Positions 4,642 through 63,466 of a DNA stretch of 64,000 nucleotides are shown here, in pieces (the stretch's first letter is position 1; each line of letters begins with the position of its first letter). The translations under genes were made by a program, and so were the position numbers. Below the pieces are notes generated by a model. The model was not told the origin of the DNA, did not search any database, and saw only the letters and a program-made list of their open reading frames with translations. Source of the DNA: Cystobasidium ongulense (lineage: Eukaryota > Basidiomycota > Cystobasidiomycetes > Cystobasidiales > Cystobasidiaceae); NCBI GenBank assembly GCA_022835595.1, contig BQUP01000008.1, positions 558,001 through 622,000 on the forward strand. The letters run 5' to 3'.

Positions 4642-5446
4642 CTAGACTGCGTACTGTTTCGTCCATTCTCTGCTGACTCTTTGGGCATCTAAAAGATTTT
4701 CCTTGTAATGTTGCGCGCACTCGTTGTTCAGGGGATCGTCCTGGTGGTAGTACGCACATCCCGGCGAAGGTGTCAGCAAATGCGCAGACTTATCGTTCAT
4801 GAAAAGACGAGCTTACTGGGTTTGGTGCCGACAGTAGAGCTTGGATTGAAAGCAGAACTGTTCTGATCTGAAGAGCAGGTGACCATTTGTCTGTGAGAAC
4901 ATTGAATGCATTAGCTCTCGACACCCACAAATAGTCTTACCTGATCTGCCATTGTGCCTTACCTTTCAAAATGTCGAGACATATACGACCAAGCTTATCT
5001 GTGTAGAGTGGTGGAATATGAGCATCACGTTCCCTTATCTCCCAGAAGGTATACATACCAATATTTGGATGGTATATCTTTGTCATGAAGCTGCGAGTGA
5101 CGGGTTGTACAGCATCAGTTGATCTACTGTTGACTAGCGCTTTTGCAACAAGTTGCTGACCGGACTTTGGGCGCCCCCATTGGATATTCTTCTGGTAAGA
5201 ATAGCTCTAGCTTGAACTTGCCCCCTTCGAAAGCAGAGTCGCTCGGTCCATCGATAACAACATCGAAGTATCTCAGGTTATCGTCGTGAGGTATGGCTGA
5301 AATGCCTGGCGGCGAGTCGGCGACAAGTCTCTCCGTTTCCTGCAGACAAGGTTTCAGGGTGTTAGCCACACACTACTACCCTGCAGCGCTTGCTAGCTTG
5401 CCTTGATGATCCGCTTTGGCAGCGCAGCCGAAGTTGATGGCGGCAT
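4642..5446 (-). CDS. UBC13: Ubiquitin-conjugating enzyme E2 N (Ubc13)
   Basis: The spliced product reads [15 protein letters not shown], then [94 protein letters not shown] and [11 protein letters not shown], and ends [15 protein letters not shown] with TAG at 4642-4644. It is collinear with human UBE2N and yeast Ubc13 at nearly every position and has about the same length (about 152 aa). The catalytic cysteine is in GRICLDIL. Ubc13 pairs with an Mms2-type variant to build K63-linked ubiquitin chains in DNA-damage tolerance. About six short exons carry standard donors. The gene starts 230 bp from the divergent WASP start. Confidence 0.95.
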
Positions 5447-5676: not shown

Positions 5677-7772
5677 ATGCCCTCGTCCAGCTCGCTGAAC
5701 GTTGAAGAGAAGGCGAAGATCAAAAAGGCGATTCAATCTGGAAAGGTGCGCCTGCAGTGTCCCACACCATGGGCTTAAATGGCATCACATGCCCAAGCAT
5801 AGCCACCTGGTCGCGCTATGTTGCGAGCACGATGCCGTAGTCATTCCTCTAATGCTGATGTAATGTCATTCTGCCTGTTTCAGATTGTAGCAGCTGCCCC
5901 AGCGAGAATATACTACGCTTGGCCTAATCCGAATGTCTGGAGCTATGGCGGGGTCGAGGGTGCGCTTGTTTTCGGCGTTCAAGATAATGGTTACTGGTTT
6001 CGACTGGTTGACCTGGCGGTAAGCTAATGTTGCAGACAGTAACAATGTGATACATGCAGGCTGATTCTATCAGCAATTAGGGCACACGAGGAGTGATCTG
6101 GGAACACGAGTTCTATGAGGACTTCGAATGGTACCAAGACCGAACATTCTTCTACTCATTCCCTGGCGATGTACGTTATCACATCAAAAACGAACTGACT
6201 CACACTGACAACGGGCACATGTTACAGGAATGTATGATTGGTATTGCCTTTTCCGACGAAAGCGAGGCTTCTGCTTTGAACAAGAAGGTACTGAACCGCA
6301 AGAAGTATGCTGGTAAGTCACGCTCCCCTTTAGAGGAGTTATAATAGCTTCGTTACTAATCATATCAACCTCCAACTTGCAGCTAAAACGCGGAACAAGC
6401 GCAGCTCCGGCATCGGTCTGCCTTCCATGCCCACTATCAATCTCTCCCCAAGCAGCAAGGACAAAGAACCGAAGGAAAAGAAGAAGAAAAAGGGATTCTT
6501 CAGCAAATCTCTCATCTCTGCACCTTCTGCCTTTAAGCACATTGCACACATGGGTTTTGATTCGGAAAAAGGCTTTACGGCCGAAAATGTAGACCCATCG
6601 TGGGAGCGCTTGCTCTCCCAACTTCAGGGAATGGGCATCTCGAAATCACAAATCGAAGAAAACAAAGACTTTATCAAGGACTTTGTGCGAGATGCAGAAG
6701 CTGGAAATACTGCCCAAGCGCCGCCCCCTCCCCCACCCGCACCGCAAGCCCCCAAGGGGAAGAGAAAGCAAGCTCCGCCTGCTCCAAAGAGCAGAACTGC
6801 AGGCGACGATGCAGAAGACACTCCGCCTTCGGCACCATCTCACCTTCCACCTCCCCCGCCTCCTTCTCTAGGAGCTTCCGCTCCATCTCGGCCCAATATA
6901 CCTCCACCGCCGCCGCCTCGTAAGCACGGCCTACCATATGTGATCCCACTGGACTGACTAGACTGACAATCCTCGTCATAGCTGCTGCCGGGACTTCCGC
7001 CAGGCCTTCAGCTGCACCCCCGGCGCCTCCTCGTAAGCCCTGGACGAAAGTTACACCAGGCTCCAAGCTAATATGATTGATTTACAGCGCCACCGTCGAG
7101 CAAAGCTCCATCTGCACCTCCTCCACCGCCGCCGCCCCCTCCAGCCGGTGGCAGGGGCGCTCCTCCCGCCCCTCCAGCTCCTCCAGCTCGTAAGTCCAAT
7201 GCTCAGGTCATTGTATTGCAAATAGCTGAGCTGATTAGCTACCCTAGCGTCGCGTCCTTCTGGCGGTGCTCCACCACCACCACCTCGTAAGTTTTATATA
7301 TTGATAGACGTTGCTGGGAGGCATCCTCTGATTCATGTAATGTCTGCACATCACAGCACCACCTTCGATGCCGGGTCGAGGAAGTGCACCACGTAAGCAA
7401 TTGAGATCAGCCTTAATGACTTCCGAATACGCTGACTCCCGCATACATACAGCTCCGCCAGCACCTCCTTCGAATCGTGCTCCACCCCCACCCGCACCAC
7501 CTGCTGGCGGATCCTCTTTGCCACAGCCAGAAGGCGCACGTGTAAACTTGTTAGCGTCTATTCGCGGCGCTGGAGTTGCCAAGCTCCGCCACGTAGACGA
7601 GGGCGCATCTCCTTCTGCTTCAACTCCTAGAGCGGAGACACCAAGTAGCACTACACCCGCTGCAGATGGTGGAAATTTGGCTTCTGCTTTGGCAGCAGCT
7701 CTGACTGTCCGCAGAGCTGGTACTGGCGATAGTGATGATGACGACGAGAGCGACGATGAATGGGAAGAGTAA
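5677..7772 (+). CDS. LAS17: WASP/N-WASP homologue (Las17-type actin nucleation promoter)
   Basis: Domain order: short N-terminus (MPSSSSLNVEEKAKIKKAI), WH1/EVH1 domain (PARIYYAWPNPNVWSYGG, NGYWFRLVDL, GVIWEHEFYEDFEW, FFYSFPGDECMIGIAF), a basic stretch with KKKKK, a CRIB motif ISAPSAFKHIAHMGFD and a helical segment (SWERLLSQLQGMGISKSQIE). A long proline-rich region follows, then one WH2 motif (RVNLLASIRGAGVAKL) and an acidic tail with a single Trp ending DESDDEWEE, stop 7770-7772. Such proteins activate Arp2/3 at endocytic patches under Cdc42 and SH3 control. The proline-rich part is spread over small exons at 6982-7032, 7088-7189, 7248-7286 and 7357-7392, between longer exons at 6383-6919 and 7453-7772. 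All the junctions are phase 1 with C|GTAAG donors. Start 5677 is the first ATG of the WH1-containing frame. Confidence 0.93.
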
Positions 7773-8457
7773 GCAGTATGACACTTGCGCGCGCTATGCA
7801 TTCCAGATGCAGTCAGTCCAACGATAATGTAGCTATAGCTCATACTTTACACCATGCGTAACACTGGAAATGAATGAAAGAGTGTTCAGTAAGAACTTTG
7901 CCGCTTGGCACGCCGTGGAGATGTTCCTATATTTGCCCGCTGTGTCATAGTCAAGGACGATGAGGCAGCTTATCCGAGTGTACGACTGTTTCGCACCGTT
8001 CTCACAGGCTTTACAAGTAATTACTGCCTCGCGCGCTGGTACAGGTTGAACGTATAAGGAGACATAGCTTACTAAACTGCTTCATTCATGTAGGTGCTAA
8101 GTAGAGAGGCCTAGGATGTAGCCAGAGCGCATACAAGATTGCGCTTCACCCAATACGGAAGGGAAGGCTTTAGGATCGTCGTTGACTTGTGTAATTTGCC
8201 ATAGCTACACGTGATTATCCATGAATATTGTTTCAATACCTACGACACAGTAGAGTCTGATCTAGCCACCTCCTCACCCCGATGCTGTTGATAGCTCAAG
8301 CTGCACCGAGTGATGGTTATTCACAACCGACGTGCGAACTTCTGCAGGTCTGCGCGTTGTACATATGGCCTCGAATTGGTGTTTGAATTGTCTGGCATCT
8401 AAAACAGAATCGGATCGATGGGTGCCAGAGCGGGAGTGCCTAGATAATGGAGCAGCA
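7773..8457. other. Convergent intergenic region, no gene seen
   Basis: This is the 3' region between WASP (+) and the low-complexity gene (-). It has mixed composition, no long open frame with coding character, and no repeat or RNA gene that I recognise. Confidence 0.5.
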
Positions 8458-36607: not shown

Positions 36608-39434
36608 ATGGCTATCTTCAACCACCATCGTGCGGAGAAGGGTCAGAAAGTAGAAATCAACAAGAATGGCAGTGCAGCCTCTACTACTCGGAATATCTAT
36701 GGAGTGCAAGATCCTGAGCGATACACTTTGCGCAAGTGGCCATGGCGCCCTCGTACAACATCGTTCACTCGGATCCTACAACAAGTAGGTTGTTTGCTAT
36801 CGTCCAGGACCTTCCACTATTGAGTATAACTCTGGTGCGTGTAGAATTATCGAGGAGATGGCAGTAAAGAGCATCCTTATGTCGTCAGTCTATCCTTATC
36901 CTTATTTACCATGTCGACAAGTCCACTTAGGAAAGGCTAAAAATGTCTATGGTTTCGGTACATTACAGATTCAATGGCTCTCCGATGATGTAGAAGATCC
37001 TCAAAATTTCCGTGTAGGATCCAAATGGACGATTACAGCCGTCAATGCCGGTGTGACGCTTGCTGTGGCTTTGGCAAGTTCAACATATGCCGGAGCTGCT
37101 CTCGATATAGCTTTCGCTTTCAGAGAGCGAAACGAGGAGATCGTTATTCTAGGTATATAGCTCAAGCATTCCTGGCAAGCATTTTCCATTGACCTGACGC
37201 CCTGAATCCAGGCATATCCTTGTTTGTTCTAGGCTTCGCGTTCGGACCTCTCGTTTGGGGACCTTTGTCAGAGATATATGGCCGTCGATGGATCCTGATT
37301 GTAAGTCATATTGGAACAGGGCAGATCAGCTGCGCTTACTGTTCAGTGAACCGCCCTGACGACATTCTGCTATTTCACAGGGTACCTATGCCATGTTCAC
37401 GCTGTGGAACGCTATCGCAGCTGCATCTCCCAATATCGGCTCGTATATCGTATTTCGATGCTTAGCTGGTATATTCGGGTCTTCGCCGTTAGCGTGAGCT
37501 ACCTTCAGATCACAGGCTAGACCAACCCAGACCGTGTAGCTGTTTCTGAATCTACGGAGCTCTACAGAAATGCTGGGGGTACGATCAGTGATATATTCGA
37601 GGCCAAGACTCGAGGCTTGGGTGAGTCATTCGTTGCTCTGACACATCGACAAGTATCTAAACCAGGAGAGCGTCAACAGCCGCTGGACTGTTTGCTGCTG
37701 CTTTGATCTTGTAAGTAGACCTAACTTGTCAGTGCGCTAGTGAGATACAGCGCTTGATAGATCGCTGGCTATCCAGAGGACCGGCCCTTGGACCGACAAT
37801 TGGCGGTTTTATGAGCCAGGTGAGAGTCGGTAGGACGATTCCAGACTTCGGTGCAAATTGATTGCCATTCCTTCCAGACGGTAGGATGGGCGTGGGTTCA
37901 AGGGTTCCTTGGCATCTTCTCTGGAGTTCTTACGATTATCTGTTTCTTGACGAGTACGGGACTTTGACCGTTGCGGCGTGTCGAGAGGTTCGTTGACTCC
38001 GCTTCATTCGTTTGCAGTACCGGAGACATACGCACCAACGTTGCTTCGACGAAGAGCTGCCAGACTGACCAAAATTACGGGTCGACGTTATTGTGCGCCC
38101 ATGGATCTGGACAGCAAGCAAGACCTGGCTTGGTTCAGAACACAGCTGGTACGCCCTTGGCAGCTGTTATTCCAGGAACCTATTGTTTTCGTCATCAGTG
38201 TCTACATGGCCATCGTCTATGTAAGTTGCTTAAGTCTTGCGACCCAACAGCTGCTGAAACCCTGGTCATTCTTGGCAGGGAACCTTGTACTTATTGTTTG
38301 CAGCATTTCCCATCGTGAGTATTTGACCCAAAAAGCTGATGCGCCCAGCTTATCGCACGGCATTCGTATTTCCAGATCTTCCAGCAAGGTCGAGGCTGGA
38401 GTGCGGGCATCAGTGGCCTTGCGTTCATGGGAATGTTCGTTGGAATGCTCATTGGTCTACTTTGGTCCATGTTCGTCTCGGAACCACAATACGCTAGGGC
38501 TACGAAAATGCACAATGGCCATCCGCCGCCAGAAGCTCGACTGCCACCATCGCTCATTGGGGGCCCTGCCTTAGTGATTGGCTTAGCCTGGTGTAAGTCT
38601 ATACCATTATGAAAGTCGACCAATCTGACGAACACCCTCGTAAATGTTAGTCAGCGCATCATGCGGGCCATCGACATTTTGGCTTGTTCCTATCATGGGG
38701 TGAGCTTCTCTAGATTTTTGAACGAATGGAGATGTAGCTGAACAAGTGAGTGGCCCGCAGTGCTGCGCCGGTTGGCTTCGGCATGGTCCTCATCTTCCTG
38801 CCCCTAGTGCTATACCTGATTGAAGTATACACTGTCTACTCGGCAAGCGTGTTGGCAGCCAGCAGTGTTCTTCGCAGCTTGTTTGGGGTTGGTGAGCAGA
38901 GCATACTCCCTTTGATGCTGAAAGAGCATGATACTAAGCTACCACCGCGCTGCGTTAGCCTTTCCCTTGTTCACCACGTACATGTATCGCAACCTCGGTG
39001 TGCACTGGGCGTCTGCAGTGAGTGCGACAGTAGCTTCATACAGCATTCACAACATTCTTTCCTCTAACATTCTATCCCTGCAGGTTCCTGGCTTCCTCGC
39101 GCTAGGATGTCTCCCTTTCCCTTTCCTTTTCTACAAATACGGCGCCGCTCTTCGCAAGCGATGCAAATGGACGACAAAAGCTGCCAAGCTCTATGCAGCA
39201 ACAGCTGCTACCGGATCAGAGCAGGGCATTGACAGTTCAGAATCGAGTAGAGGGATGACCGAGTTGCATCCTCAATTGTCGCATCACACTAAAGAAGCAG
39301 AGAACCACGAAAGGAATATGGATAGAGGTAGCGTGCGGAATGGAGTCAGTAGCATGAATGCAGGGAGTAATGGTCAGCCAGCTGCCTTTAATGTAGATGC
39401 GGACCGTCTGGCTGCCATGCAAGAACGCGTGTAG
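36608..39434 (+). CDS. DHA1-family MFS transporter, copy 1 (polyamine/drug:H+ antiporter-like)
   Basis: The cytosolic N-terminus has [20 protein letters not shown]. The core then has [199 protein letters not shown] and [20 protein letters not shown], and a long hydrophilic tail ends LAAMQERV at 39434. The 'FGPLxWGPLSExYGRR' and 'VPETYAPxLLxxRA' blocks are typical of fungal 12-TM DHA1 (TPO1-like) exporters. About ten short exons. A paralogue lies at 41306-44224 in inverted orientation. Confidence 0.9.
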
Positions 39435-39576: not shown

Positions 39577-40990
39577 TTATGCTTGGAAGGATACACCGAA
39601 TTTCTTGGCTTCTGCCATGCCTCCTCCAGCGTAGCCAGTTCCCTCGCGCTTTATGGCAACAATGGGCTGCTTCTTCTCGGGTAGCAATATTGTGTCACAA
39701 TGTGCGCATTGTGGAGGTGATGCTTTCTTTACGAGTGTCTCGACGCAAGTGCCCTACATCATAGTCGTCAGCATGACAACCGACAGAGAACGTATCGGTA
39801 GCAGGACTTACGCATAAAACGTGACCGCAGGGTTTGAGCACAAAGCTTGCGACGTTATTGGACAGTGTCTTGCGGCAGGATGGGCATGTATACTCGGGTT
39901 CCGCCGTGCCCTTTGAGCCGGCCTCTCCGTTCGCGAGTTCTGGAGCCATATGAAACTTGACAGTTGTCAATGACTTTAGACTATGAATAATGGAGGTATT
40001 CTCAGTATGCGGACGCTTGACAGGCAGATAGCAGCTAGTCACCTTATCGGATGAGGCGGATCGTTCGCCCGGCACAGAGTTTGTAATTTGACTTCCGAGA
40101 TCTTCGTAGGTGCGGCATTGGGCGTTAAGCTCGGCTGACGGTGTACACAATCTTGTCAGATGTGCTGCAGCGGAAAAGGACCTCCTGTCGGGACATTTCA
40201 ACCCACCAGCCAGAAGTTAGGAAGCTTGGCCTTTCTCTTTTCCGCCTGTTCGCGCTCTATGTCCCGCATTGCTTTCTCTTCGTGTTCCTCTTGTAATCTG
40301 ATTACTTCCTGTTCGTCCAAAGCAAACTTGCGTTTCGTGCCGCGTTCACCGATACTTTCGATAGCGACGGGGTCTACCGTATTGTTGCTTGTGCTGGAAG
40401 CAGAAAGAGCCGATGTGCCCGCACCAGACTGAAGCTTCTCAAAGTCTCGCAAGACTCTCTCGCGAGCTAGCTGACGTGCTGCTTGACGCTCTTGCTCCTC
40501 CTCTTGGCGCATCCGTTCAAGCAGCTTCTCTTGTCGCTTGATTTCCTTCTTTTGTGTCAGGAGGGATGTGATAACACACTCCTGTGTACCTAGAATTAGC
40601 AACTGGCTAAAATGTCACTGTACATATACTGTTTAACTCACTTGACAGAAGATATGACCTTCATCGCACATGCGTGGGTCTCGCGCTCGCATCAGGCAGA
40701 GCGAACAGGCATCAAAATTGCGCAGAGAGTCTCGCCCTAGGCGCATTTTCCGACTTCCATATTGAGTTTCGTTCCTCTCAGCATACGAGAACACGGGCTA
40801 TAGGGTTGCAGTAGCAAAGTAGCAGTAAGGCAGGCGGATGGAGGTTGATCGAGTTCAGCAAGACCAGCTTTAGCGACCGGACTGTAGATACATCACTAAC
40901 CGCAGCTGTTCGATTCTACGTATGGCAGATCAGTCAGTACTTGTGCTGTGCTTTCTGGTGCGCGGTACGCACCTTGCTATGTTTCGTCAT
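39577..40990 (-). CDS. NOSIP-like E3 ubiquitin ligase
   Basis: The spliced N-terminus reads MTKHSK, NRTAA, PVFSYAERNETQYGSRKMRL, GRDSLRNFDACSLCLMRARD, CDEGHIFCQ. The middle is a charged helix (RQEKLLERMRQEEEQERQA, EREQAEKRKAKLPNFWL). The C-terminus has YTCPSCRKTLSNNVASFVLK, PCGHVLC, GTCVETLVKKASPPQCAHCD, PIVAIKREGTGYAGGG and KKFGVSFQA, stop 39577-39579. This is collinear with animal and plant NOSIP: a U-box/RING split by the coiled region, and the GTGFAG-type end. NOSIP proteins are ubiquitin ligases associated with late spliceosomes. Family members often lose Cys, but here several zinc ligands remain. The first intron is 57 nt, followed by a 15-nt micro-exon at 40901-40915 and a 103-nt intron. 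Confidence 0.9.
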
Positions 40991-41305
40991 TTTGTCGAAT
41001 GGGGTTGGCAAGAGCTGGACACGCCTTGAAAGCTTGAAGCCTTTCTTCGGCTCGTTTGAACGGTGGCAAGAGTGATGTTGCTTGTTCAAGAGACAACTAC
41101 CGAATAAGCGATGAACTGCTACGCGTCCTTGATGTCATTCTTGGATTATTACGCTGCTCGCTTTTCAAATTTGCTTAGTTCAAGAAGGGACAAATACTAA
41201 CATACGTACATTGAACGAGTGAATGCTTGACAAACTCTATATTGGATACGGTATTATACGACAAGCATACTTTACGCCACGATATCTCTCTAAACTCTGG
41301 TATAT
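40991..41305. other. Spacer upstream of NOSIP and downstream of MFS copy 2
   Basis: 315 bp between the NOSIP start and the 3' end of the second transporter, both on the minus strand. No gene or repeat seen; it must hold the NOSIP promoter. Confidence 0.35.
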
Positions 41306-44224
41306 TTACTTGTCTAGAGCATTATGTTTATCATTGTTGGTACGGTGGACTTCCTCTTCAGCCAAAGTATCCTGCTGACTGCTGCCACTGGCAGAAACTT
41401 TGCGATGAACTCGACCATTAGGGCTTTCCTGGTTTCTGTCAACCTCGACAACGACATCTTCCTCAACCGGAGCATCTAAAGCAGCGTCTAGGTTTTCTTG
41501 GTCTTCAGCCTGTTGCGAGGGGGCTTCCTTCTTTTGAGCCACCTGGCCGCCGGCCATCATGGCAGCCAACATCTTGTCGGCTCTGACAGTCCATTTGCAT
41601 TTCGCTCGTAGACCTGCACCATATTTGTAAAAGAGGTAAGGGAAAGGGAGGCATGCAAGAGCTAAGAAACCTGGAACCTGGAAGTAGACTTGCGTCAGCT
41701 ATGGTGCCTCTATGAGAGCCTGGCCTGAACCGCTTACTGCGGAGGCCCAGTGAATGCCCAGGTTGCGGTACATAGGAGTGGTGAACAGCGGGAAAGCTAT
41801 TAAGAGAGTGGCTCAGCTTTGTTCATGACAGCATCGAGTGCTATCGATGTAAGGGAGCGTTGCCGTACCTGTGCCGAACAAACTTCGCAATACGGAATTA
41901 CCAGCTAGGACACTTGCGGCAAACACCGTGTAGACCTACAATGTAAACACGCGTCAGCACTATAGTGGGCACCATACCAACTAGAATCAGGATACGCACA
42001 TCCACCAAATAATTCATCAGAGACAAGAAGACCAGCAGCATGCCCAAGCCGAAGGGTACACCGCTGTATGGGGGCATCGTCAATACGAGTAACACTGGAG
42101 TCTGTACAGGAGAATAAAACTCACGCCAAGATAGGTACGATCCAATGCACTTCGGGTCCACATGAAGCGGCGACTGAAGGAGACGAGTCGAAGGAGTCAG
42201 CCTCTGCTAGCAGATAGTCGAACGACAGCCGAGGCACAGCAGCTTACACCAAGCGAGTCCGATGACGAGAAGTGGTGCACCGAGAAGGGAGGGTACCAAA
42301 CGTGTCTCAGGTGGAGCACGACCGCCAGGGGCGGCATTGGCGGTTTTGATATATTTGGGATTGGTAATGAAGATCGTCCACGTTACGCCAAGCATCATAC
42401 CAACTAAGAGACCAAGGAATGCAAGACCGCCGATACCGGGACTCCAGCCTCGAGTTTGTTGGAAGACCTGTTCAAGCAATCACTGGTAAATATGACTAAC
42501 AAACGCAAGGAACTCAAAGAGAATTGGGGGAGGCGTACGATGGGGAAGGCAGCGAACAGCATGTATAGGGTACCCTGCCGTGCCGGGATCAAGTCAGATT
42601 TGGGATGAAAATGTGTGCGAAAGATTGACGGGGTCTCACATAAACAATGGCCATGTAGATACTAATGGCCATAACAATTGGCTCTTGGAAGAGTAATTTC
42701 CATGGCATACTGAGCTGAGTTAAAAAGACTCGACGAACGTCTAGTTCTTTTTCAGCGTCCATAGGAGCGCGGTAATATTTGCCGGTGATCTTGGATAGCC
42801 TTGCAGCGCGTTGCCTCAACAGAGCAGGAGCATATGTCTCAGGGACTGTATCCGACAGGGTTCAGCTGATTCGGTTCTAGCTGTTTCATGCACATGTACG
42901 TACCGGCCATGAAAGACACAAGTGTGAGGATACCAGTAAAGATTCCCAAGAATCCCTGGACCCATCTCCAGCCTGCGGACTAGAAGGAGTATCAGAAACA
43001 CCGCTGAAACATGGATTATAGACTGTTACTTACTTCGCCTAGGAAACCTCCAGTGATCGGACCTAGAGCAGGTCCTCTGCAATGACACAAGGGCGTCAGC
43101 TCTGATGTAGAATGACCGAGATTTCTATTGCAAAAGTGCCTACAAAAATGGTGCAGCGGCGAATAGAGCGGTAGCTAGAACGCAGAATTTAGTATACTGG
43201 TACTAGCGAGGAATTTGCAAGAAAAGGTGACTCACCAAGACCTCGCATATTAGCGGAGAACATGTCGCTGATAGTGCCTCCCGCATTGCTATAGTCTTTT
43301 TTGTCAGTAACGCGGCGCTTAACACAATTCCTGTGATTAAACAGAACTCACGCCAGAGGTGAGGATCCAAAGGCTCCCGCAAGGAATCGGAAAACGATGA
43401 GAGCTGCCATATTAGGCGATGCTGCAGCAACAGCGTTCCAGAGGGTGAACATTGCATATGAGAACTAAGGAGAGCAGTCGGTAAGCAGAAATTGGACACA
43501 TTGAGATGCCATTACGTACGACTAGGATGGGTCTTCTGCCGAATACTTCTGATAAAGGTGCCCAGATGAGAGGGCCTAGAGCGAAACCAAGCACGAAGAG
43601 CGAGACACCTGAAGAAAGCCATAATTAGTGTGCAATAATGGAACGTTCTGAATTAAGCTAGAGTAGCCTACCTAGAATAAGGACCTCCTGACTCTTAACA
43701 TTGAAGTCTTCGCGGATAGATGTAACGGCACCACTGTATGCGGAACTCGCTAATGCTACGGCGAGCGTGACAATAGCGCTGATCATGGTGACAACCCATT
43801 TGTACGTGGTGCTGTAGGTTTGTGGGTTCTCTGGATCGTCTGGCAGCCATGTAATCTGACAGTAGCGTAGTTAGCATACAAGTCCAAGTACGCTCACGTG
43901 AGTTCATCAACGCCACAAACTCACGATGAAAGGTTTTTCCTTGCTTCCGTCGCCTCTGTATTCCTGCAAGAGCAGCAAAGGGGACATGTAGTGCATTAGC
44001 AATGTGCCTTCTGGCCGGCTGCAAGTCGGTATGCCCAAGTGTCAAGTGCTGAAGAAGCTCACCTGAGCTAGAATATGCGGGAAAGGTGTGACCCGGGGCC
44101 GCCATGGGCGTTTCTGCAGGGAATACTGGTCGGGATTGGAGACGCCATCCGCTACCTCCATGCTGAGAGCTCTTCTGGGCGCTCGGCCCTGGCCTTTCTC
44201 TGCATTGTTCAGCGTTGTAGCCAT
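41306..44224 (-). CDS. DHA1-family MFS transporter, copy 2
   Basis: Paralogue of the copy at 36608-39434 with the same plan: N-terminal [20 protein letters not shown], then [197 protein letters not shown], and a tail ending [10 protein letters not shown] at 41306. The start ATG at 44224 gives [12 protein letters not shown]; open frame continues upstream, so a longer form is possible. The pair are clearly diverged duplicates: many conserved blocks, but different tails and loop lengths. Convergent to copy 1 with NOSIP between. Confidence 0.9.
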
Positions 44225-51797: not shown

Positions 51798-52502
51798 ATG
51801 CCTCTCACGCCAAACTCGGAACTGGATTTACTGTTCGATGACAAGCTTGTTCCAACCTCTGCGTTCGACGCACTTGCCGAGCGGGGGCTGCACGTGAGTT
51901 TGGAGGAAACGCGTACACAAGCGACGCAAACGCAATCCAAGGCAAACCAGACTGATGCCGATACACTCGCTATGTTAATCTCTCTTGAACAATCAGCTGC
52001 GACCTTTGAGCAGCACAGATTATTCAAGAGGTCATCTCACCGTCCTCTCAGACTTGACTCAAACACCAGACCTGGGATTATCGAAATATCAAGAACGATT
52101 TAATCTAATGAAATCATCTGGGACATATTACATTCTAGTTATAATAGATAAAGAAACAGATCAAGTAGTGGCTACAGGTACTAATATGGCCGAATATAAA
52201 TTCATTAGAAACGCAGGTTTAACTGGACATATTGAAGATATTGCAGTTAGTAAAACAAATCAAGGTCAGAAATTAGGTTATTATATCGTTACTGCTTTGA
52301 CAGAGTTAGGTGAGAAAGTTGGATTCTATAAGAGTATATTGGATTGTGAGGAGAAGAACAAAGGTGAGTTGTCGTAGCTTTGAGCTTTTCTATGCATCCG
52401 AGTCAGGGCTGAAGCAACTTCTATCTCACGACGACAGGCTTCTATGAGAAATGCGGACACGTCTATAAAGACAATATTCAAATGGCAAAGTACAAGAAGT
52501 GA
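51798..52502 (+). CDS. GNA1: Glucosamine-6-phosphate N-acetyltransferase
   Basis: Exon 1 gives MPLTPNSELDLLFDDKLVPT and ERGLH. An intron of about 108 nt follows (about 51894-52001), then LRPLSSTDYSRGHLTVLSDL, FNLMKSSGTYYILVIIDKET, VATGTNMAEYKFIRNAGLTG, HIEDIAVSKTNQGQKLGYYI, LGEKVGFYKSILDCEEKNKG, and after a second intron FYEKCGHVYKDNIQMAKYKK, stop 52500-52502. This is a GNAT fold with the acetyl-CoA loop NQGQKLG. It matches yeast Gna1 throughout (GHIEDIAVS, DCxExNxGFYEKCG). The enzyme makes GlcNAc-6-P for chitin, glycoprotein and GPI synthesis and is essential in fungi. The codons of exon 2 are strikingly AT-rich compared with exon 1. Confidence 0.95.
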
Positions 52503-52699
52503 AGTGAGACGTTGGTCCACTCCTCAGAGGTCATTGCCTTTTATCGCTTTCGATGAGCGTCGCAATACGAATATGCAGTGCAGTTGTCGTTTTTTCTCGT
52601 TTCTCCTTTGTCGCAATACTATGGCAACATACATAAGTCCCTTCACCTATTATCTCAACAACAGTACATACGTACACGTTGACTAATCCAGTCCGACCT

Positions 52700-54427
52700 T
52701 CACTCAAAAGTCAACTTCCTCGCCACTTTGACGCCTGCTTTACTACCTGTCAATTCACCATCATTTGCTTCACTTTTCCTCTTCTTGTTGCCTTGTGGAT
52801 TCATAATGTCTTTTCCATTGACTTCTTCTTCACCAGGAACATGTCTAGGAACTAATTCAGCAGTAGGTTTAGGTAGCTTACTAGGATGAGTAGGTAAAGG
52901 TTTTTCATGAAAGTAATCATGTTTTAAAGCTTGTAAAGCAGTTATTCTTTTAGAAGGATTAAAAGTTAAACAACTAGATAATAAATGTATTCCTTTTAAA
53001 GGAGTAGCAGTGAATAACAATTTGATATCTTGTTTAGGATAAATAGGTTTAATTTCATAAAAATCATTTAATTTTTTAAAATTTGGCCATTCTTCTTCTG
53101 TTGGTGTTCCTAATGCTCTAAAAATTACTTCTAACTGTTCAAAATCTGTTTCTCCTGCCATGTAGGGTAATCTCAACATTAATTCTGCAAAAATACATCC
53201 TGCTGACCATATATCTACTGCTCCTGTGTAGGATCGTGCTCCGAAGAGTAGTTCTGGAGAACGGTACCATCTGCCGGGTTAATGCATATTAGCATGCTTG
53301 CGCTTGAGTTGCCTCGGCAACTCCAACACAGTGACAAGAGCTAGGACTCACCTTGTGACAACCTGATGTGTCATCTTAGCATCTGCATCTGCAAATTCCC
53401 TCGCTAGACCGAAATCGGCAATCTTGAGCCTTCCATCACTTGCGATTAACAGATTGTTAGGCTTGAGATCCTGTATCATTAAAGAAGTTAAGGTTCAGTT
53501 TGAGGTTTCAGACAAGAAGAAGCTCATTAGGAACTCGGACAGGACAACATGTCGGGCGAGTAAAATAATCGCGCGACTTACGCGATGTAAAACCCAATTC
53601 CTATGACAGAATTCCAGACCTTTAAAAGTCATAGCCATCCAAGATTTAATATCACCAGCTTGAAAAATCAAAGATCTGTCTTTGATAATAGCTTCTAAAT
53701 CAGTATCTAAATATTCTAATACTAGATTTAGATTTGCTTTATGAGAGAAAACGTCTAGTAGCTTGATGTTTTCGAATATTGGGGTAAAAGAAATAACATG
53801 GAAAGAAAGATATCAGCAATGATTTCTCACGAGAATATAAGATTGACAATTGGTTCTGTTAAGACATACTTCTATTACGTTCGGATGACGTAGCTCTTGT
53901 AGGAATTTTACTTCTCGAATAGCAGACATGTCGAGGCCATCTAGATAGAAAAGTAACAACATCAGCAAAACACATCTAGCGATCTTCCTTGACTGAGAGG
54001 AACACAGAGGAGCGACGGGCTTACCTTTGAATTGGCCCACTTTGAGCTTCTTGATTGCAATCTTCCTACCAGTAGCTAATTCTCTTCCTGTGATACGCGC
54101 AGAGTAAGTATAATTCAGGACATTGTCCGGAGCTTGTACGCCCAATTAGTACGAAAGGCTGGGAAGTGGACGAACCTAGATATACGGTGGCATCTATAGG
54201 TGAAATCAGAGGAGGTATATACAGTCAGCTCTTCCTCGTCTGGTGTGCTCGCACAATGCATCACGACCTACAAGTTCCCTCTCCGATCTTCTTGTCCTTG
54301 CCTGTGATACAAGAGTCACGGAAGCTTCTTAGCTATAATATACCCAACATGGATGGTGCGTGAAGAGAGTGTCAAACACACTGTATGCTCTCAGTATACG
54401 TTCGTTCTCAGCTTGTGCAGCCTCCAT
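52700..54427 (-). CDS. KIN28: Cyclin-dependent kinase CDK7/Kin28 (TFIIH kinase)
   Basis: Spliced product: [190 protein letters not shown] and [20 protein letters not shown], with a Lys-rich tail ending [14 protein letters not shown] at 52700. DLKPNNLL and [11 protein letters not shown] are CDK7 hallmarks; the T-loop threonine is kept. It phosphorylates the Pol II CTD. The glycine-rich loop is coded by tiny exons: coding exon 1 of 28 nt (54400-54427), exon 2 of 30 nt (54272-54301) and a micro-exon of 18 nt (54176-54193). Confidence 0.93.
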
Positions 54428-55524: not shown

Positions 55525-57898
55525 ATGCCAGGTCTAAGATCACTCCCTCATTCTGTCGGATCAGTCGAAATACAAAAGCAACGCGTACTAGCAAGACTAC
55601 GTGAAAAGTCCACTCCGTTGGATCAGTATGAGGTGCGCTCTATCAAAACATATATCCTCATTGCGGCAGCCATCTCCGTTGGCTGACTTGCTTTACTCCT
55701 CCCTCTATGCTCGCAGTACCTAGTCTCGCTACAACATGCAAACACAGATCTATTCTTCCGCACTTTGATGGTAAGTTGACTTTCCCATCCGCGCATTTGT
55801 CCGGACGAGAACATAGTCCGTATTATATGGAGGAATGATTGGCAATCAGCCAGCCGTTGAAGGGTGTGCTGTATTTGATTTACAGGTCGTACTAAGTTCT
55901 GTCTCTTGTTTCCCGCCCTCTGTTATTCCAGGACAATGTACGCGAACTTATGCCCCTCGTCTACACCCCGACGATCGGATCCGCATGCCTCAGATACAGG
56001 TGAGATGCTATCCCAACTACTATGAGCATTGTCTCGTGATGACAAGAAGGTCTGTCTCATACTGACCTTACCCTTGTCCCTTACGCAAAACGACAGCCAC
56101 CTATTCTCATACGTTTCAAACGCTCTATTTTTATCCTACAATGAAAAAGGAAGAATAGCAGAAATATTAGATAGTCTACCTGATGATTTTGAGATATCAG
56201 TAGTCACTGATGGAAGTAGGATTTTAGGATTGGGTGATTTAGGTGTAGATGGTGTTGGTAAGTCAGACTCTCCACTCATCGTTACTGAACAGAAGAAAAC
56301 CTAAAAGGTTCGGAAAGAATGCTGACTGAACATTATTGTATTTGTGATAAAACAGGTATTCCAATGGGTAAACTAGCGCTCTATTCGGCATGCGCAGGTA
56401 TACATCCAGCAAAAACACTACCAGTAGTATTTGATGTAGGAACGAATAATGCACAAAAATTACATGATCCTTTATATGTTGGATTAAGACAAAATAGAAT
56501 TACTCCAGATGAAGAAAAAGAATTCATTAATGAATTTATGATTGCTTCTCAAAAGAGATGGCCTGGTATGGTCGTTCAATTTGAGGATGTAAGCGTTTTT
56601 CCCCCAACTTTTTCCATCTATACTTCCAATCCTTTTCGTAGCCCTCTCTGTGAAGTCGTTGCTAATACCTTTTTATTCTTCTTTGATGCTTTCTAGTTCT
56701 CGACGGAATTAGCGTTCGATCTACTGGCGACGCATCGTGATAAATACCCTACTTTCAATGATGACATTCAAGGTACCGCTGCTGTCTCACTAGCTGGAAT
56801 GATCAATGCCATTGCGGAAAGTGGGACTCCTCTACCGGAACATAACATTGTCTTCTTTGGCGCTGGTAGTGCTGCTGTTGGCATTGCTGAGTTGGTGAGT
56901 CTACATATCCTTGTCCAGATCTCGACAAGCCATAGTCGATAGCCAAGCGATTGACACTCTGACCTGTTTTATGCTATCTTCTTGGTACAGATCGCACAAT
57001 ACTTCATCCAACAAGGTATTCCAGAAGTCAAGGCAAAAGAAATGATTACACTAGTCGATTCAAAAGGATTAGTAGCCAATAACAGAGGTGATAATTTACC
57101 AACACACAAGAAATACTTCTCAAAATTAGATTCAAAAGTACCACGTTTGACGAATTTACAAGAAGTAGTAGAACATTATAAGCCAACAGCATTATTAGGT
57201 TTATCAACAGTAAAATCAGCTTTTAGTGAAGATATTATTAGATTTTTAGCAAAAACAAATAAAAGACCTATTATTTTCGCTCTAAGTAATCCTTTAACTC
57301 AAGCTGAATGTACTTTTGAAGAAGCTATACAATGGTCAGATGGAAATGCTTTATTCGCTTCTGGTTCTCCTTTTGCGGATGTTAATTGGCATGGAAAGAA
57401 TTTGATCAATAATCAGGGTAATAACGTTTAGTGAGGCTTTCACTTGTCATATTCAGTACTGCCGATTACTGATGCTTCCAATCCGAATAGCATCTTCCCT
57501 GGACTTGGACTGGGTGCTATCCTAGCCAAATGTGCAACAATCCCAGAAGACCTAATCCACACCTCGGCGAATGCTCTGGCACAAGCGACGACAGCAGAAG
57601 AGAAATCACAATTTATGATGTATCCGAGATTGGAGCGTATTCGCGAAGTATCAGGAACGAGTAAGCCTATACCTCCTTTGATCCATATCCCCTCTTTCAA
57701 ATATTTTCTTCTGTAAGAACTTTCGCTAACCTTGACTTGTTCGCAGTCGCTTTCAAAGTTATCAAAAAATGCCAAGAATTAGGTATCGCTCGCAATGACA
57801 AGATTAAAGGAATGTCAGATAAACAACTACATGCATACATCGCTCAAAACATGTATGATCCGCTATCATCTGCGAATGGAGAGCCTGCCAAGCTATAG
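55525..57898 (+). CDS. NAD-dependent malic enzyme
   Basis: Exons encode [243 protein letters not shown] and [20 protein letters not shown], stop 57896-57898. The catalytic Tyr in VYTPTIG, the Lys in GKLALY, the metal ligands in QFED and NDDIQG, and the GAGSAAVG dinucleotide loop are all present. It converts malate to pyruvate and CO2. No obvious mitochondrial presequence is seen on this start. About ten exons; the middle exons are AT-rich in codon use, the ends less so. Confidence 0.95.
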
Positions 57899-58310
57899 AC
57901 TGTTCCCGAGCGCCTACATAGGAGCGTGCAGCCGTAAGGCAGCCGTGTATTGGGAGGTGTCTGTCGAGTCGGAGGATATGCAGTGCTGTTACGAGACACC
58001 AGCGGGTCAAGTATACCTGAAGTCTTTTCCCTTCTGCTAACGGGAATATCCTTTTAATTGTTGTGACTATAATTACTTTCTTCTTTATAAGTGAAACTTG
58101 AGCAAAGATGCCGACAGTGCGACGCATCACCAGCACTGACAAGTTGCCTACCTTGTCGAGTTCCTCCGTTGTGGCTATATACTTGTGGCGATCTCCGAGG
58201 GCTACCAGGCTCATGAGCCTCTCCAACGTCATTTGCCCGCCAACTTGATTTTCATTTGTTTCCCACAAGCGAACTGCGAATACAATACATACATCCTCGG
58301 ACGTTTAAGA
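57899..58310. other. Spacer with an uncertain minus-strand open frame
   Basis: Between the malic enzyme and the dehydratase-like gene, both on +. A minus-strand frame at about 58060-58268 reads plausibly (TNENQVGGQMTLERLMSLVA, YIATTEELDK before a GTAGGC donor-like site). Its upstream exon would have to lie opposite the dehydratase gene, and downstream it runs antisense to the malic enzyme. I do not call it a gene. Confidence 0.3.
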
Positions 58311-59801
58311 ATGGTCATCAAAGTGCCGTTGTGCTATGCGACGCCCTCGTGCGGTAGGCTAATGTCCACCATAGCTGCGTGACTTTCGTGCTGATGATGA
58401 TGATCGACGTCGTGTACAGGCATGCACAAGAATCACACTCTACGTACGCTAAGGAAAACTGATATATCATACTGTAGAACACCTCTTAGACTTACTTCCA
58501 CTGACTTCCCGCAGCTATGAAGCTCGAAGCTATATCCCAAGCCGGATTCGACTCCATCGAACTAGGGATGCCAGATCTGCAAGCCTACGCACAGCAACAA
58601 CTAGGACCTTCATTCACACCCTTATCAGATGAAGACGGTTCAGGTGATCTAACATCATTAAAGAAAATAGCAAAAGAAATAAAAGAATTATGTTCAAAAT
58701 TAAACTTGTCAATTTTATGTTTGCAACCTTTTAGTCAGTTTGAAGGGTATGATAAAGATGATCATAAGAGAGATAGCAGATTTAGAAAAGCTAAAGTTTG
58801 GATGGATATTATGAATGTTCTTGGTACTGATATGTTACAAGTTGGTAGTACTGATGATAAAGAAAGTACTGCTGATAGAGATGTAGTTGTACAAGATTTG
58901 AAGGAATTGGCTGATTTAGCCGCTAAGAAGGGCATGAGGATAGGTTATGAGGTGAGCTTTTGATTTCTAATGAAGAACACTGCTCAAACAGATACACTGA
59001 CTCACCTTGCAGATGTGGTGCTGGGCCGCTCACAATTCCACTTGGAAAGACATCTGGGAGATCTGCAAAGCTGGTAGGATCGCCTCTTTCATGACTTTAC
59101 TAAGTGCAGGGAAAACGCTAAGCTGTATGATCTTTTCATAGTCGACCGACCAAACTTCGGCCTATGCCTCGATACCTTCCAAATCACAGGCAGAGAGTGG
59201 GCCGACCCATCTGAGCCGGATGGACTGCTAGCTGGGTTCGCGTCAGCTGAAGAGCGCAATGCAGCGCTTACAAAATCTTTGAATGAGCTGTCAACGACCA
59301 TTCCAGGTACGTGGATGAATAGTCATATAGTCAACCACATGCGAATAAGTAGATTCTCATCAATGCGTATTTGATACGTTCTTTCAGCCGACAAGATATT
59401 CTACTTTCAAATCTCGGATGCTCAAAAGATGGACCCTCCAATCAATGAGAAACATCCAGCTTGGGACGGAGAAACTCCAGCTCGTGGATTATGGAGTCAT
59501 GATTATCGACCATTACCTTATCAGACTGAAAAAGGTGCTTATTTACCTGTGGAAGGTATGTTTCAACAACTCCATTCTTGCCGTTTCTGTGAACAAAAGC
59601 TAAGCTCTGCATAATCATTTGTGTGACTATCCAGAGTGTACAGCCGCTGTTCTGAAAACTGGCTACCGTGGTCCTTTCAGCTATGAAATCTTCTATGGTG
59701 AAGACATGTCAAAGGATGATCCCGAGGTACCGAAAAGATGGACAGAGGACAGTATGAAATGCCATGAACGTCTTATGGCTGCCTGCGAAAAACTCTTATA
59801 A
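58311..59801 (+). CDS. 3-dehydroshikimate dehydratase-like TIM-barrel enzyme
   Basis: Exons: 58311-58353 (MVIKVPLCYATPSC), a 24-nt micro-exon 58420-58443 (GMHKNHTL), then from 58515 PMKLEAISQAGFDSIELGMP, LSILCLQPFSQFEGYDKDDH, RFRKAKVWMDIMNVLGTDML and QVGS. These are followed by GMRIGYEMWCWAAHNSTWKD, VDRPNFGLCLDTFQITGREW, KIFYFQISDAQKMDPPI, RGLWSHDYRPLPYQTEKGAY, TGYRGPFSYEIFYGEDMSKD and CHERLMAACEKLL, stop 59799-59801. The xylose-isomerase-like fold with CLQPFSQ, YE.WCW, NFGLCLDTF and SYEIF follows the QutC/Qa-4 plan, in which the two Glu, Asp and His bind the metal. That family turns 3-dehydroshikimate into protocatechuate in quinate use. Another sugar-phosphate isomerase-like substrate cannot be excluded. 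No other quinate gene is in the window. Confidence 0.85.
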
Positions 59802-60503
59802 AGCTATCGCCGTAAATAATGATAGTCGAACGAAGGCATCAATGGCCCTCGAGCAGTGGATCATAACATGTAGCATTGCATTGCCAGAATAGAAAATACT
59901 GCGAAATACAAGTAAAAGGTGAAAAACAAAAAAGGACTTCCGTCAAGGAATCCCACTAATGTGAGGAATAAAACACAAAGAGAGAGATTAAACAATGGTA
60001 TTGTATCTGGTTGTAGGTCCAAAAAGCGCGATTCTGAAGGGGTAAAAGGGTGCCTTCAAAAAGAGCCTTCCACTGTATGAAGGATATAAAACTTCTCGAA
60101 GCAAGATATTTCTATTGATTTGAGGTAAAGCGTACCAAGGGATATGACCAGAAAAACAAAGGTGGGAGATACGGTAAAAAGAATGAGAACGAAAGGTGGG
60201 AACAAAATAAAACTGCGAAAGAGGCGGTGAAAATTTGAAAAGAGGACCAGAAATGCGAAGTTTGCTGACTGAGGTATTCTTGAGAGGTTGTTGAGAGCTT
60301 TCTGTGGACGACTGATAGGTTTTATTGTTTATTGATGAAATGCTAAAGGCTTGACCTTGGAAAGCGCCAAGGCAAGGAGAATAAAACGAAAGACTATAGA
60401 GAGGAGAGTCGATAATTGAGAGGCGGGTTTGGATTGAATCTTGTCAAGGCTTGAAATGAGTTATAATTATGAAAAATATGTGTGTCCCTTTCCTAGAATC
60501 ATC
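59802..60503. other. Purine-rich convergent 3' region
   Basis: 700 bp between the stop codons of the dehydratase-like gene (+) and LCB2 (-). The plus strand is strongly A/G-rich from about 59920 to 60440, so the LCB2 transcript would have a CU-rich 3' region. No gene recognised. Confidence 0.45.
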
Positions 60504-63466
60504 CTAGTCCGATTCGACCAACATTCTGGAGTTCTTGATGATGTCCTCGACTTTCATTCTCTTATGTTGACTAGATAGTTTCAATCCTAGAATATCACCA
60601 ATAACATCACAAGCGATAAGTACTCTATCAATATCTTGTTTAGTATGTGCGGCAGAAACGCAAAATCTAACTCTCGAAGAAACTAGTGGTGTTGCTGGAT
60701 AAGCTACTACTACCGTTACTATATTAAATTTCTCTAGCATTAATCTCGAGAATGCTCCCATTTTGCCTGGTGAAAACATCAAAAGGGGTACGATTGGTGA
60801 ATCTCGATGACCGTAGACGATGAACCCGAGCTGTGCGTAAAGACGTCAGTTCCGATTTCATCTTGTAACCTAGTTTAGGTTAAGTTACTCACCTTCCTCA
60901 GACCCGTCGATAGATAACGAGAATTAAAAGCTAATCTCCTCAATCTTTCCAATCCTTCAGTACCATCCAGCATTTTCTTATTCATATATTTTTCTAAACC
61001 AGGGATCACTTCCAAAGATTCTTTACCGCCCATAATACAGACAATAGCAGAAATAATTTGCATTAAAACAGCAGGAGAATGAGCTTCACCATAAACAGAA
61101 GAATGATTGCTTCTTCTCATTTCTGAAATCATTTCTTTACTTCCTGCAATATATCCTCCTGCTGCTCCGAATGATTTTGTTAATGTTCCCATTAGAATAT
61201 CAACTTGTCCTGGATCTACGTTAAAGTAATCGCATACTCCTCTTCCTTTTGGTCCTAGTGCTCCTACGGAGTGTGCTTCATCGACATAGAGGTAGAACTG
61301 CGGGAGGTACGAAAGAAATAGAGAGGAGTTGCGTCAGTACAGAAAAGAACGCGATGTACTCGAACAAGAAACGCCTAAGCCTACCTTGTACTTTCTCTTA
61401 AGTTCCAAAATCCTAGGAAGATCAACTAAAGATCCCTCCATAGAATATAGTCCTTCAACGATAAGCATGATTTTCTTCCAAGGTCTATGGGTTCTAGGTT
61501 GACCTTGAGAGATAGACTCTCTCAGTAATTTCTCCAAATCCTTCATATCATTATGTTTATATTGTTTAACGACAGCACCAGACAATCTAACACCAAATCG
61601 AATAGAAGCATGATTAAATTCATCAGAAATGACTAAACAACCTTTTGAAACTAGAATAGGTAAAGTAGCAGAATTAGTTGCAAAACCTTGTGAAATTAAT
61701 AAAGAATCTTCAACTCCTAAAAATTTAGCTATTAATCTTTCAGCATGAATATGCAAATCCAAAGTACCAACATCTTCTCTATTTCCTAAACTTGATACTC
61801 CATATGTTTTAATGACTTCTTCAACTGCATCTGCACATCCTCCTTTGGATTGATTGAATCCTAGATAATTGTAAGAGGAGATGTTTAATGCTTGTGTGGT
61901 GAGACCGGTGAAGCGGAATGTAGCGTAATGATCTAGAGAGACTCGGTCCAAGCAGGTGATGGTTCGTCCAGCCACTCCAGTAACGGGACGAGAGAAGAGA
62001 TCTTCAATTCGTGCTTTGAGACGGCGAGTGTAGAAGGAGTCGAAATCGCTATTGAGAGCCGCGTAGCCCTGTGTGCGGGGAAAAGAAGATCGCAACAAGA
62101 CGAGGAGGCGAGTCGTGAAGGGCATTCAATGTGTGCAAATGAACAGAGCCAGAGTGGTATGGCGAATTGAAGGGTCGGAAGGGTCAAGAGGAAGAAGGAT
62201 AATAAAGCAGTGCGTCAGTTACCGGTTTCCGTCACATACCACCTATAGAGCCCCAGACGAAGCTGAAACAAAGGGTAAAGTGATGTGAAGACTCACATTA
62301 TAAGGCATTAAATGCTGATAACTTTTTCTATGGGTTCTCTTTCCAATAAAATCTCTCATATGACCGACTACGATTAATAATAAATAAGACATGTAGGTAG
62401 TCAAATAAATAAAATGTGAAGGTTCTTCAATTTCTTCACCACCAACACCCGTAGATTTCCTATATTGAGATTTATATTCAAATTTTTCTGCTGTATAACC
62501 AAATTCAGAATGTCTAGTTGCTAAAGGATCATTTTTTAATTCTTCCGGAACATAGAATGGATCAGCATCAAAATGCCTCGTTGGTGCTATCTTACTAGCA
62601 TTCAAAGGTGGATGTTTACTAAAATACTTTAAAGCTTCAGATTGTTTTAAAGGGACGTGATAATCATTTGAATAAACTATTTTATCTTCTTGTTGATGTA
62701 ATGTAAAGTTTGCGATTGATTCAGAGAGACCTCTTTTACGGCCTAGTATGAGACCACCACCACCGTTAGTAGCATTTCCATTGGGTGAAGTGACAGTATT
62801 GTGAGACTGGGTATTGTTGCGCTTCCTCTTGAGCAAGGAAGAAGGCGAGGGCAAGCTAGAAGCTAGGCTAGAGGCAGCAGATGAGATGGCGCTCGATGCG
62901 GAGTTTGTCGAAGTAAAGGACCCGACATCGGAGAATGAAGAGATTGACGAAGTGCCAGTATACAACGAGCTTGAGTCATCTGATGAAGCGGATGAAGAGG
63001 TGGTAGAGTTGTGTCGAGGGAGTTGCTGCTGGCCGTTTGCCAGGTTGGTTGAAGGCGACGACGAGGTTCGAGCGGCTAGTGCGGCGAGGTAAGCCTTTGC
63101 AGCTTCAGGAGCAGCCAATGAGATGGACGAGGGGTATTCACGTCCGCCCATGTTGCTACTATTGCTACTGCTGTTCAAGTTGGCCGAGGATGATCTCTTC
63201 CTGTTGATGAAGTTTGAGATGATGGATGAGGGGGACGAAGGCGGGCGAGATGCACTTGGGTTGGGCGATGGCTGGATCTGGACGACGGGCGTGGACGAGC
63301 GAGAGAGGCCGAGGCCACTGCTGGACGAAGGCCTGTTGGCGGTGTTGCTTGGAGTGCTGCTGCCCTCTTTGGTCTTTGTGCTGCTGCTGCCGCTGCTGCT
63401 GGGAGTGTTGGTGTTGTGATGCTGGTGGTTGCTGGAGGATGAGCGGGATCGACTGAAGAGCGGCAT
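60504..63466 (-). CDS. LCB2: Serine palmitoyltransferase subunit 2 (LCB2) with long N-terminal extension
   Basis: Exon 1 (63466 to about 62297) starts MPLFSRSRSSSSNHQHHNTN and encodes about 270 residues of Ser/Asn/Pro-rich disorder before homology begins at KYFSKHPPLNASKIAPTRHF. A membrane segment FIYLTTYMSYLLLIVVG comes next. Later exons give GYAALNSDFDSFYTRRLKAR, GLTTQALNISSYNYLGFNQS, YGVSSLGNREDVGTLDLHIH, ISQGFATNSATLPILVSKGC, VISDEFNHASIRFGVRLSGA, LIVEGLYSMEGSLVDLPRIL, VDEAHSVGALGPKGRGVCDY, GTLTKSFGAAGGYIAGSKEM, RSNHSSVYGEAHSPAVLMQI and RVRFCVSAAHTKQDIDRVLI, ending NSRMLVESD at 60504-60506. The PLP lysine is in TKSFGAAGG. With LCB1 it makes 3-ketosphinganine in the ER, the first step of sphingolipid synthesis. 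At roughly 850 aa it is longer than the usual 550-650. Confidence 0.94.

Follow-up and report, generated by a model that had tools for sequence, protein, structure and literature searches.

What does it mean when several successive introns interrupt a gene in one phase and at nearly the same junction? The question is raised by a WASP/Las17-type fungal gene at 5677-7772 (+) of the window, the 64-kb stretch of Cystobasidium ongulense DNA analysed here. WASP proteins are starters of actin filaments. Five short introns cut the proline-rich part of this gene in the same phase, and a preliminary description took the exons between them to be interchangeable cassettes that may have arisen by tandem duplication. 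Its structural observation is correct, but the interpretation is borne out in part only. The reading favoured here, with a probability of roughly 0.8, is that of an ordinary fungal WASP gene whose five proline-rich introns are, we infer, removed constitutively and individually through intron definition.

A WASP-type gene and its five-intron block

The gene has 10 predicted exons, all on the forward strand, and its spliced translation yields a protein of 487 amino acids. Four exons (5677-5745, 5884-6018, 6081-6170 and 6228-6312) precede an intron at 6313-6382 (phase 1, donor G/GTAAGT, where the slash marks the splice site), which the gene finder predicted at all four settings. The exon that follows (6383-6919, 537 nt) encodes the CRIB/PBD and the initial proline-rich part. 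Downstream of the five-intron block, the last exon (7453-7772) supplies the proline-rich end, a V-like segment, the acidic terminus and the stop codon.

The protein displays the traits of the WASP subfamily: an N-terminal WH1 (Pfam PF00568, E 6.7e-15, residues 22-121), a CRIB/PBD (PF00786, E 3.1e-10, residues 171-222) and a polyproline region, with proline at 76 of the 161 codons of the proline-rich stretch examined. Its closest PDB match, among 10 distinct sequences matched, is N-WASP (6uhc_H, E 2.3e-21). The acidic DDDDESDDEWEE C-terminus and the V-like segment were judged by eye, and Pfam reported no WH2 up to E 1. WH1, CRIB/PBD, proline-rich region and acidic C-terminus are all held in common with fungal WASP/Las17/Wsp1 genes. 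The part of a WASP-family survey drawn on here reports CRIB in Basidiomycota, Mucoromycotina, Chytridiomycota and Blastocladiomycota, and not in ascomycetes (PMC3298513). Together with the many introns, the CRIB of this gene points to a probable basidiomycete; taken by itself, it would fit the other three groups as well. Scans of viral and genome contig collections gave 38, 12 and 33 pattern matches, none of them a relative of the WASP-type protein.

Two alternative borders were set aside. In all four parameter sets the gene finder extended the gene beyond the stop at 7772 through an intron at 7769-7812. An acidic DEWEE-type end is usual in WASP proteins, and this extension was therefore judged false in favour of the stop. 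The second intron (6019-6080) has two close acceptors, at 6059 (CAG) and 6080 (TAG); the former was rejected because it creates an in-frame stop, although its use may possibly give an unproductive splice form.

The block consists of intron 1 (6920-6981, 62 nt), intron 2 (7033-7087, 55 nt), intron 3 (7190-7247, 58 nt), intron 4 (7287-7356, 70 nt) and intron 5 (7393-7452, 60 nt), which enclose exons of 51 nt (6982-7032), 102 nt (7088-7189), 39 nt (7248-7286) and 36 nt (7357-7392). Every intron is in phase 1, starts with GTAAG[CT], ends with AG and has C on both flanks; four of the five share the donor context CTC/GTAAG, and in each a CTRAY motif, resembling a branch site, lies 13-25 nt before the 3' end. 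Thus the five consecutive phase-1 introns with the junction C/GTAAG...AG/C, as well as the four exon lengths divisible by three, stand as first described, both in the sequence and in the borders drawn by the gene finder. These traits are not independent of one another. Each intron splits a proline codon after its first base, which by itself places C on both sides, and the divisibility of the exons follows from the equal phase of their flanking introns and is no separate evidence. Since the intron at 6313-6382 is also in phase 1, the run comprises six introns rather than five and the 537-nt exon is likewise symmetric (1-1).

The intron borders come from a simple, self-trained gene finder in which the WASP locus was withheld when the coding and splice-site models were seeded and retrained. 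Introns 1-5 were recovered with exact borders in all four parameter sets, given a length prior (centred at 58 nt) and a branch-site score that had been set after the locus had been seen, and a first noncoding model that took in the entire window.

Phase and donor use within the window

Other introns in the window provide the background against which the block can be judged. A core set of 61 introns was defined as the intersection of three among eight gene-finder settings; the remaining five settings, which gave 61 to 414 introns each, two of them as one giant gene, were left out of the statistics. Removing the five introns under study and the one at 7769-7812 leaves 55 for comparison. The core set goes back to a run in which the WASP introns served as seeds, and a run without them yielded similar phase-1 shares for the other introns (31/98, 33/107, 19/60 and 49/147). 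Because the pattern was picked for its oddness, all p values reported here are post hoc, and they refer to introns predicted ab initio in a single 64-kb window.

Of the comparison introns, 33 are in phase 0, 16 in phase 1 and 6 in phase 2. With these window frequencies (16/55 for phase 1), the probability that all five block introns are in phase 1 is p = 0.002, and that they share any single phase is p = 0.08. When all possible junctions of the proline-rich region are weighted by the flanking-base preferences of the 55 introns, the expected share of phase 1 rises to 0.50 and the p value for the block to 0.03. That five random phase-1 sites would all lie in proline codons has p = 0.02. The donor is a different matter. 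GTAAG is found in all five proline-rich introns vs 13 of the 55 others (Fisher p = 0.0016), and in only 1 of the 10 others with C at -1; composition leaves this excess unexplained. Proline-rich controls were sought among the 16 proteins predicted at one setting, and none but WASP reached 10 Pro per 40 residues.

A comparable run of introns occurs in another gene of the window. The gene predicted at 52700-54427 (-) encodes a CDK7/Kin28-like kinase that matches 102 distinct sequences at E <= 1e-60; the best among the top 60 of these is yeast KIN28 (E 1.3e-115). The gene finder places its first four introns, all in phase 1, at 53941-54024, 54088-54175, 54194-54271 and 54302-54381 (-), with exons of 30, 18 and 63 nt between them. 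They fall at residues 15, 25, 31 and 52, inside a gapless KIN28 alignment that runs from residue 13, so homology supports their frame. Excising such exons from the N-lobe of a kinase would hardly be useful as a cassette, and the gene therefore indicates that equal-phase runs with exons divisible by three require no cassette function. Its donors vary (GTGTGT, GTAGGT, GTTCGT and GTAAGC), unlike the uniform donors of the WASP block. All four of these introns lie outside the core set, which holds two of the seven introns of the kinase gene, because one stricter setting shortened the gene.

Origin of the block

The near-identical junctions had been taken as a sign of tandem exon duplication. The sequences between the junctions lend this suggestion no support. 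The ten pairwise local scores among the intron interiors sum to 68, against 68.8 +/- 4.4 for shuffles (p = 0.60), and the mean score is 6.8 inside the block vs 7.2 against other introns with interiors of 40-75 nt. The internal exons score 57, against 59 for codon shuffles (p = 0.70), and the peptides they encode are likewise close to their shuffles (p = 0.12). A recent tandem duplication is thus rejected, as neither introns nor exons resemble each other beyond the shuffled level. Introner-like elements likewise supply a single gene with multiple introns of matching junctions. Introners, each copied from the same element, have near-identical bodies, whereas WASP introns 1-5 are mutually dissimilar, and an origin as introner copies is rejected too.

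An ancient duplication of an exon with its flanking intron could leave no such similarity, because introns diverge fast, and the introns would by now have changed beyond recognition. The equal phase of the flanking introns, the shared C/GTAAG donor with its CTC context in four of the five, and the order of the peptides, in which by eye a loose S/R-rich spacer is followed by poly-Pro, would all fit this origin. We nevertheless consider it unlikely: the exons are unequal in length, the similarity does not exceed that of shuffles, and proline-rich repeats are able to expand within exons without copying an intron. Alternatively, coding sequence that followed polyproline-basic motifs may have turned into introns. 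The codons CCN CGT AAG (Pro-Arg-Lys) themselves constitute a phase-1 C/GTAAG donor, so that such intronisation would account for the equal phase and donor without duplication. Introns 1-5 all read R-K at their start, but every C/GTAAG phase-1 intron does so, and this is therefore not independent evidence. Three of the five are free of stops in frame, compared with 11 of the 55 others (p = 0.08). With stops and splice signals excluded, the codon use of their interiors is, in frame, slightly more coding-like than that of other introns (one-sided p = 0.023 vs the 55 introns; p = 0.045 vs 34 introns of 50-72 nt), while the two remaining frames give p = 0.15-0.16; once signals and stops are included, introns 1-5 rank 15, 48, 54, 43 and 52 among 55. 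These statistics are weak, unadjusted and drawn from five introns, and the lengths of four of the five are not multiples of three. Intronisation is, on balance, highly improbable. Among the matches listed by literature searches on fungal WASP proline-rich introns, symmetric exons, proline-codon introns and intronisation, the pattern is absent from the titles.

Exon skipping, intron retention and constitutive splicing

As had been claimed, any internal exon of the block can be removed in frame. All 16 exon combinations, 15 of which involve skipping, read without interruption to the DEWEE end and encode proteins of 411-487 amino acids with 56-93 prolines. Proline is always remade at the join because the equal phase falls in proline codons. 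Intron retention has other consequences. If introns 1, 2, 3 or 4 are retained, a stop follows after 317, 336, 459 or 463 amino acids, respectively, and the acidic end is lost; introns 3 and 4 are themselves stop-free in frame, and their retention causes a frameshift. Intron 5 alone can be retained in frame. It is stop-free and 60 nt long, so that by its frame it is also readable as uninterrupted exon, and its retention gives a protein of 507 amino acids that gains 20 (RKQLRSALMTSEYADSRIHT) and keeps the acidic end. Among the other core introns, 3 of 55 are both stop-free and a multiple of three in length.

Like the symmetric 1-1 cassette exons of animals, the exons of the block are divisible by three in length and flanked by introns of equal phase. 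The block differs from them in that its introns are 55-70 nt long, its splicing is fungal and it is known from genomic DNA alone. Studies of fungal transcripts, each drawn on here in part, mostly give skipping a minor role. Across 23 fungi, intron retention makes up 61% of events and exon skipping 3%, and intron definition has been proposed (PMC3925392). Of 193 events recorded in Ustilago maydis, 12 (6%) are exon skipping and 114 are intron retention (PMC2219887). In Schizophyllum commune, transcript reconstruction assigns 1% of coding-region events to exon skipping, skipping reaches 21% of primitive events overall once UTRs are counted, and splice junctions tallied separately in coding regions give 1,527 skipping events and 7,851 alternative sites (PMC5034255). 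Eukaryote-wide, skipping is favoured where exons are short and where introns are long in proportion to them, and its levels in fungi are comparatively low (PMC6142364). For the family itself, a manual survey of more than 400 eukaryote genomes, with the cDNA and EST data of its time, found, in the portion consulted, alternatively spliced exons solely in one cluster in Aplysia, and it doubts an older report of a WASP lacking exon 2; full-length cDNAs are few for these low-complexity genes (PMC3298513).

The claim of interchangeable cassette exons is weakened by the short introns, by the small share of skipping in the fungal surveys and by the kinase-gene control. A regulated cassette would skip the 51-, 102-, 39- and 36-nt exons in combinations, and so tune the length of the polyproline region and with it the binding of SH3 domains, profilin and actin. 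The frame-neutral combinations and their range from 56 to 93 prolines agree with this, and, in the part of the work on yeast Las17 drawn on here, polyproline sites are contested between SH3 domains and G-actin, so length could matter (PMC12081870). Set against it are the intron lengths, the surveys cited above, the lack of such isoforms in the consulted portion of the WASP-family survey (PMC3298513) and a like exon pattern inside a kinase domain of the same window. A cassette reading of the block is possible but not favoured, and a regulated cassette appears quite improbable. A variant would place the choice mainly in intron 5, whose in-frame retention, perhaps with rare exon skipping, might shift polyproline spacing and put an Arg-Lys pair directly after a proline tract. 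By analogy with yeast Las17, where paired arginines beside proline tracts are described, in the part of the source used here, as binding G-actin (PMC5026357), splicing would then set how actin binding and SH3 binding are balanced; such a plastic splice module seems very improbable.

The ordinary-gene reading is favoured because the introns were recovered with their locus withheld, because the proline-rich context raises the phase-1 share from 16/55 to 0.50 and because introns and exons resemble each other only as shuffles do. The kinase-gene control, the dominance of retention in the fungal surveys and the WASP-family survey, as far as these sources were drawn on, point the same way. Intron lengths of 55-70 nt suggest splicing by intron definition. 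The common phase probably stems in part from proline-rich coding sequence, which offers phase-1 junctions more often, and in part from chance in a pattern selected post hoc. The frame-neutral exons would then be a by-product of the common phase, and any residual isoforms would probably be intron retention for the most part, not exon skipping. Several observations count against the ordinary-gene reading: the p value of 0.002 from phase frequencies alone, the GTAAG donors (5/5 vs 13/55) and the position of the four kinase control introns outside the core set. From the partly consulted literature, further points on that side are the small size of the 36- and 39-nt exons compared with their introns, a skipping-linked trait (PMC6142364), the Schizophyllum commune count of 1,527 skipping events and the 21% that includes UTRs, and the few full-length WASP cDNAs behind the family survey (PMC3298513).

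If the choice of exons or introns did tune the proline-rich region, the gene would exemplify splicing control of a fungal actin nucleation factor, adding to the single case in Aplysia. More probably, equal-phase intron runs need little explanation, as the second such run in the kinase gene of the window suggests.

The remainder of the window offers a few minor observations. Rfam and tRNA scans of the whole 64 kb gave 0 matches. Adjoining the WASP gene, at 4937-5372 (-), lie ORFs that resemble fragments of a UBC13-like ubiquitin-conjugating enzyme. Two convergent neighbours, at 36608-39434 (+) and 39577-44224 (-), have a similar N-terminus and by eye resemble MFS-type transporter paralogues. 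G+C content is 0.38-0.43 in the 2-kb blocks of 52001-54000 and 56001-62000, and 0.45-0.54 in the remaining blocks of the window.
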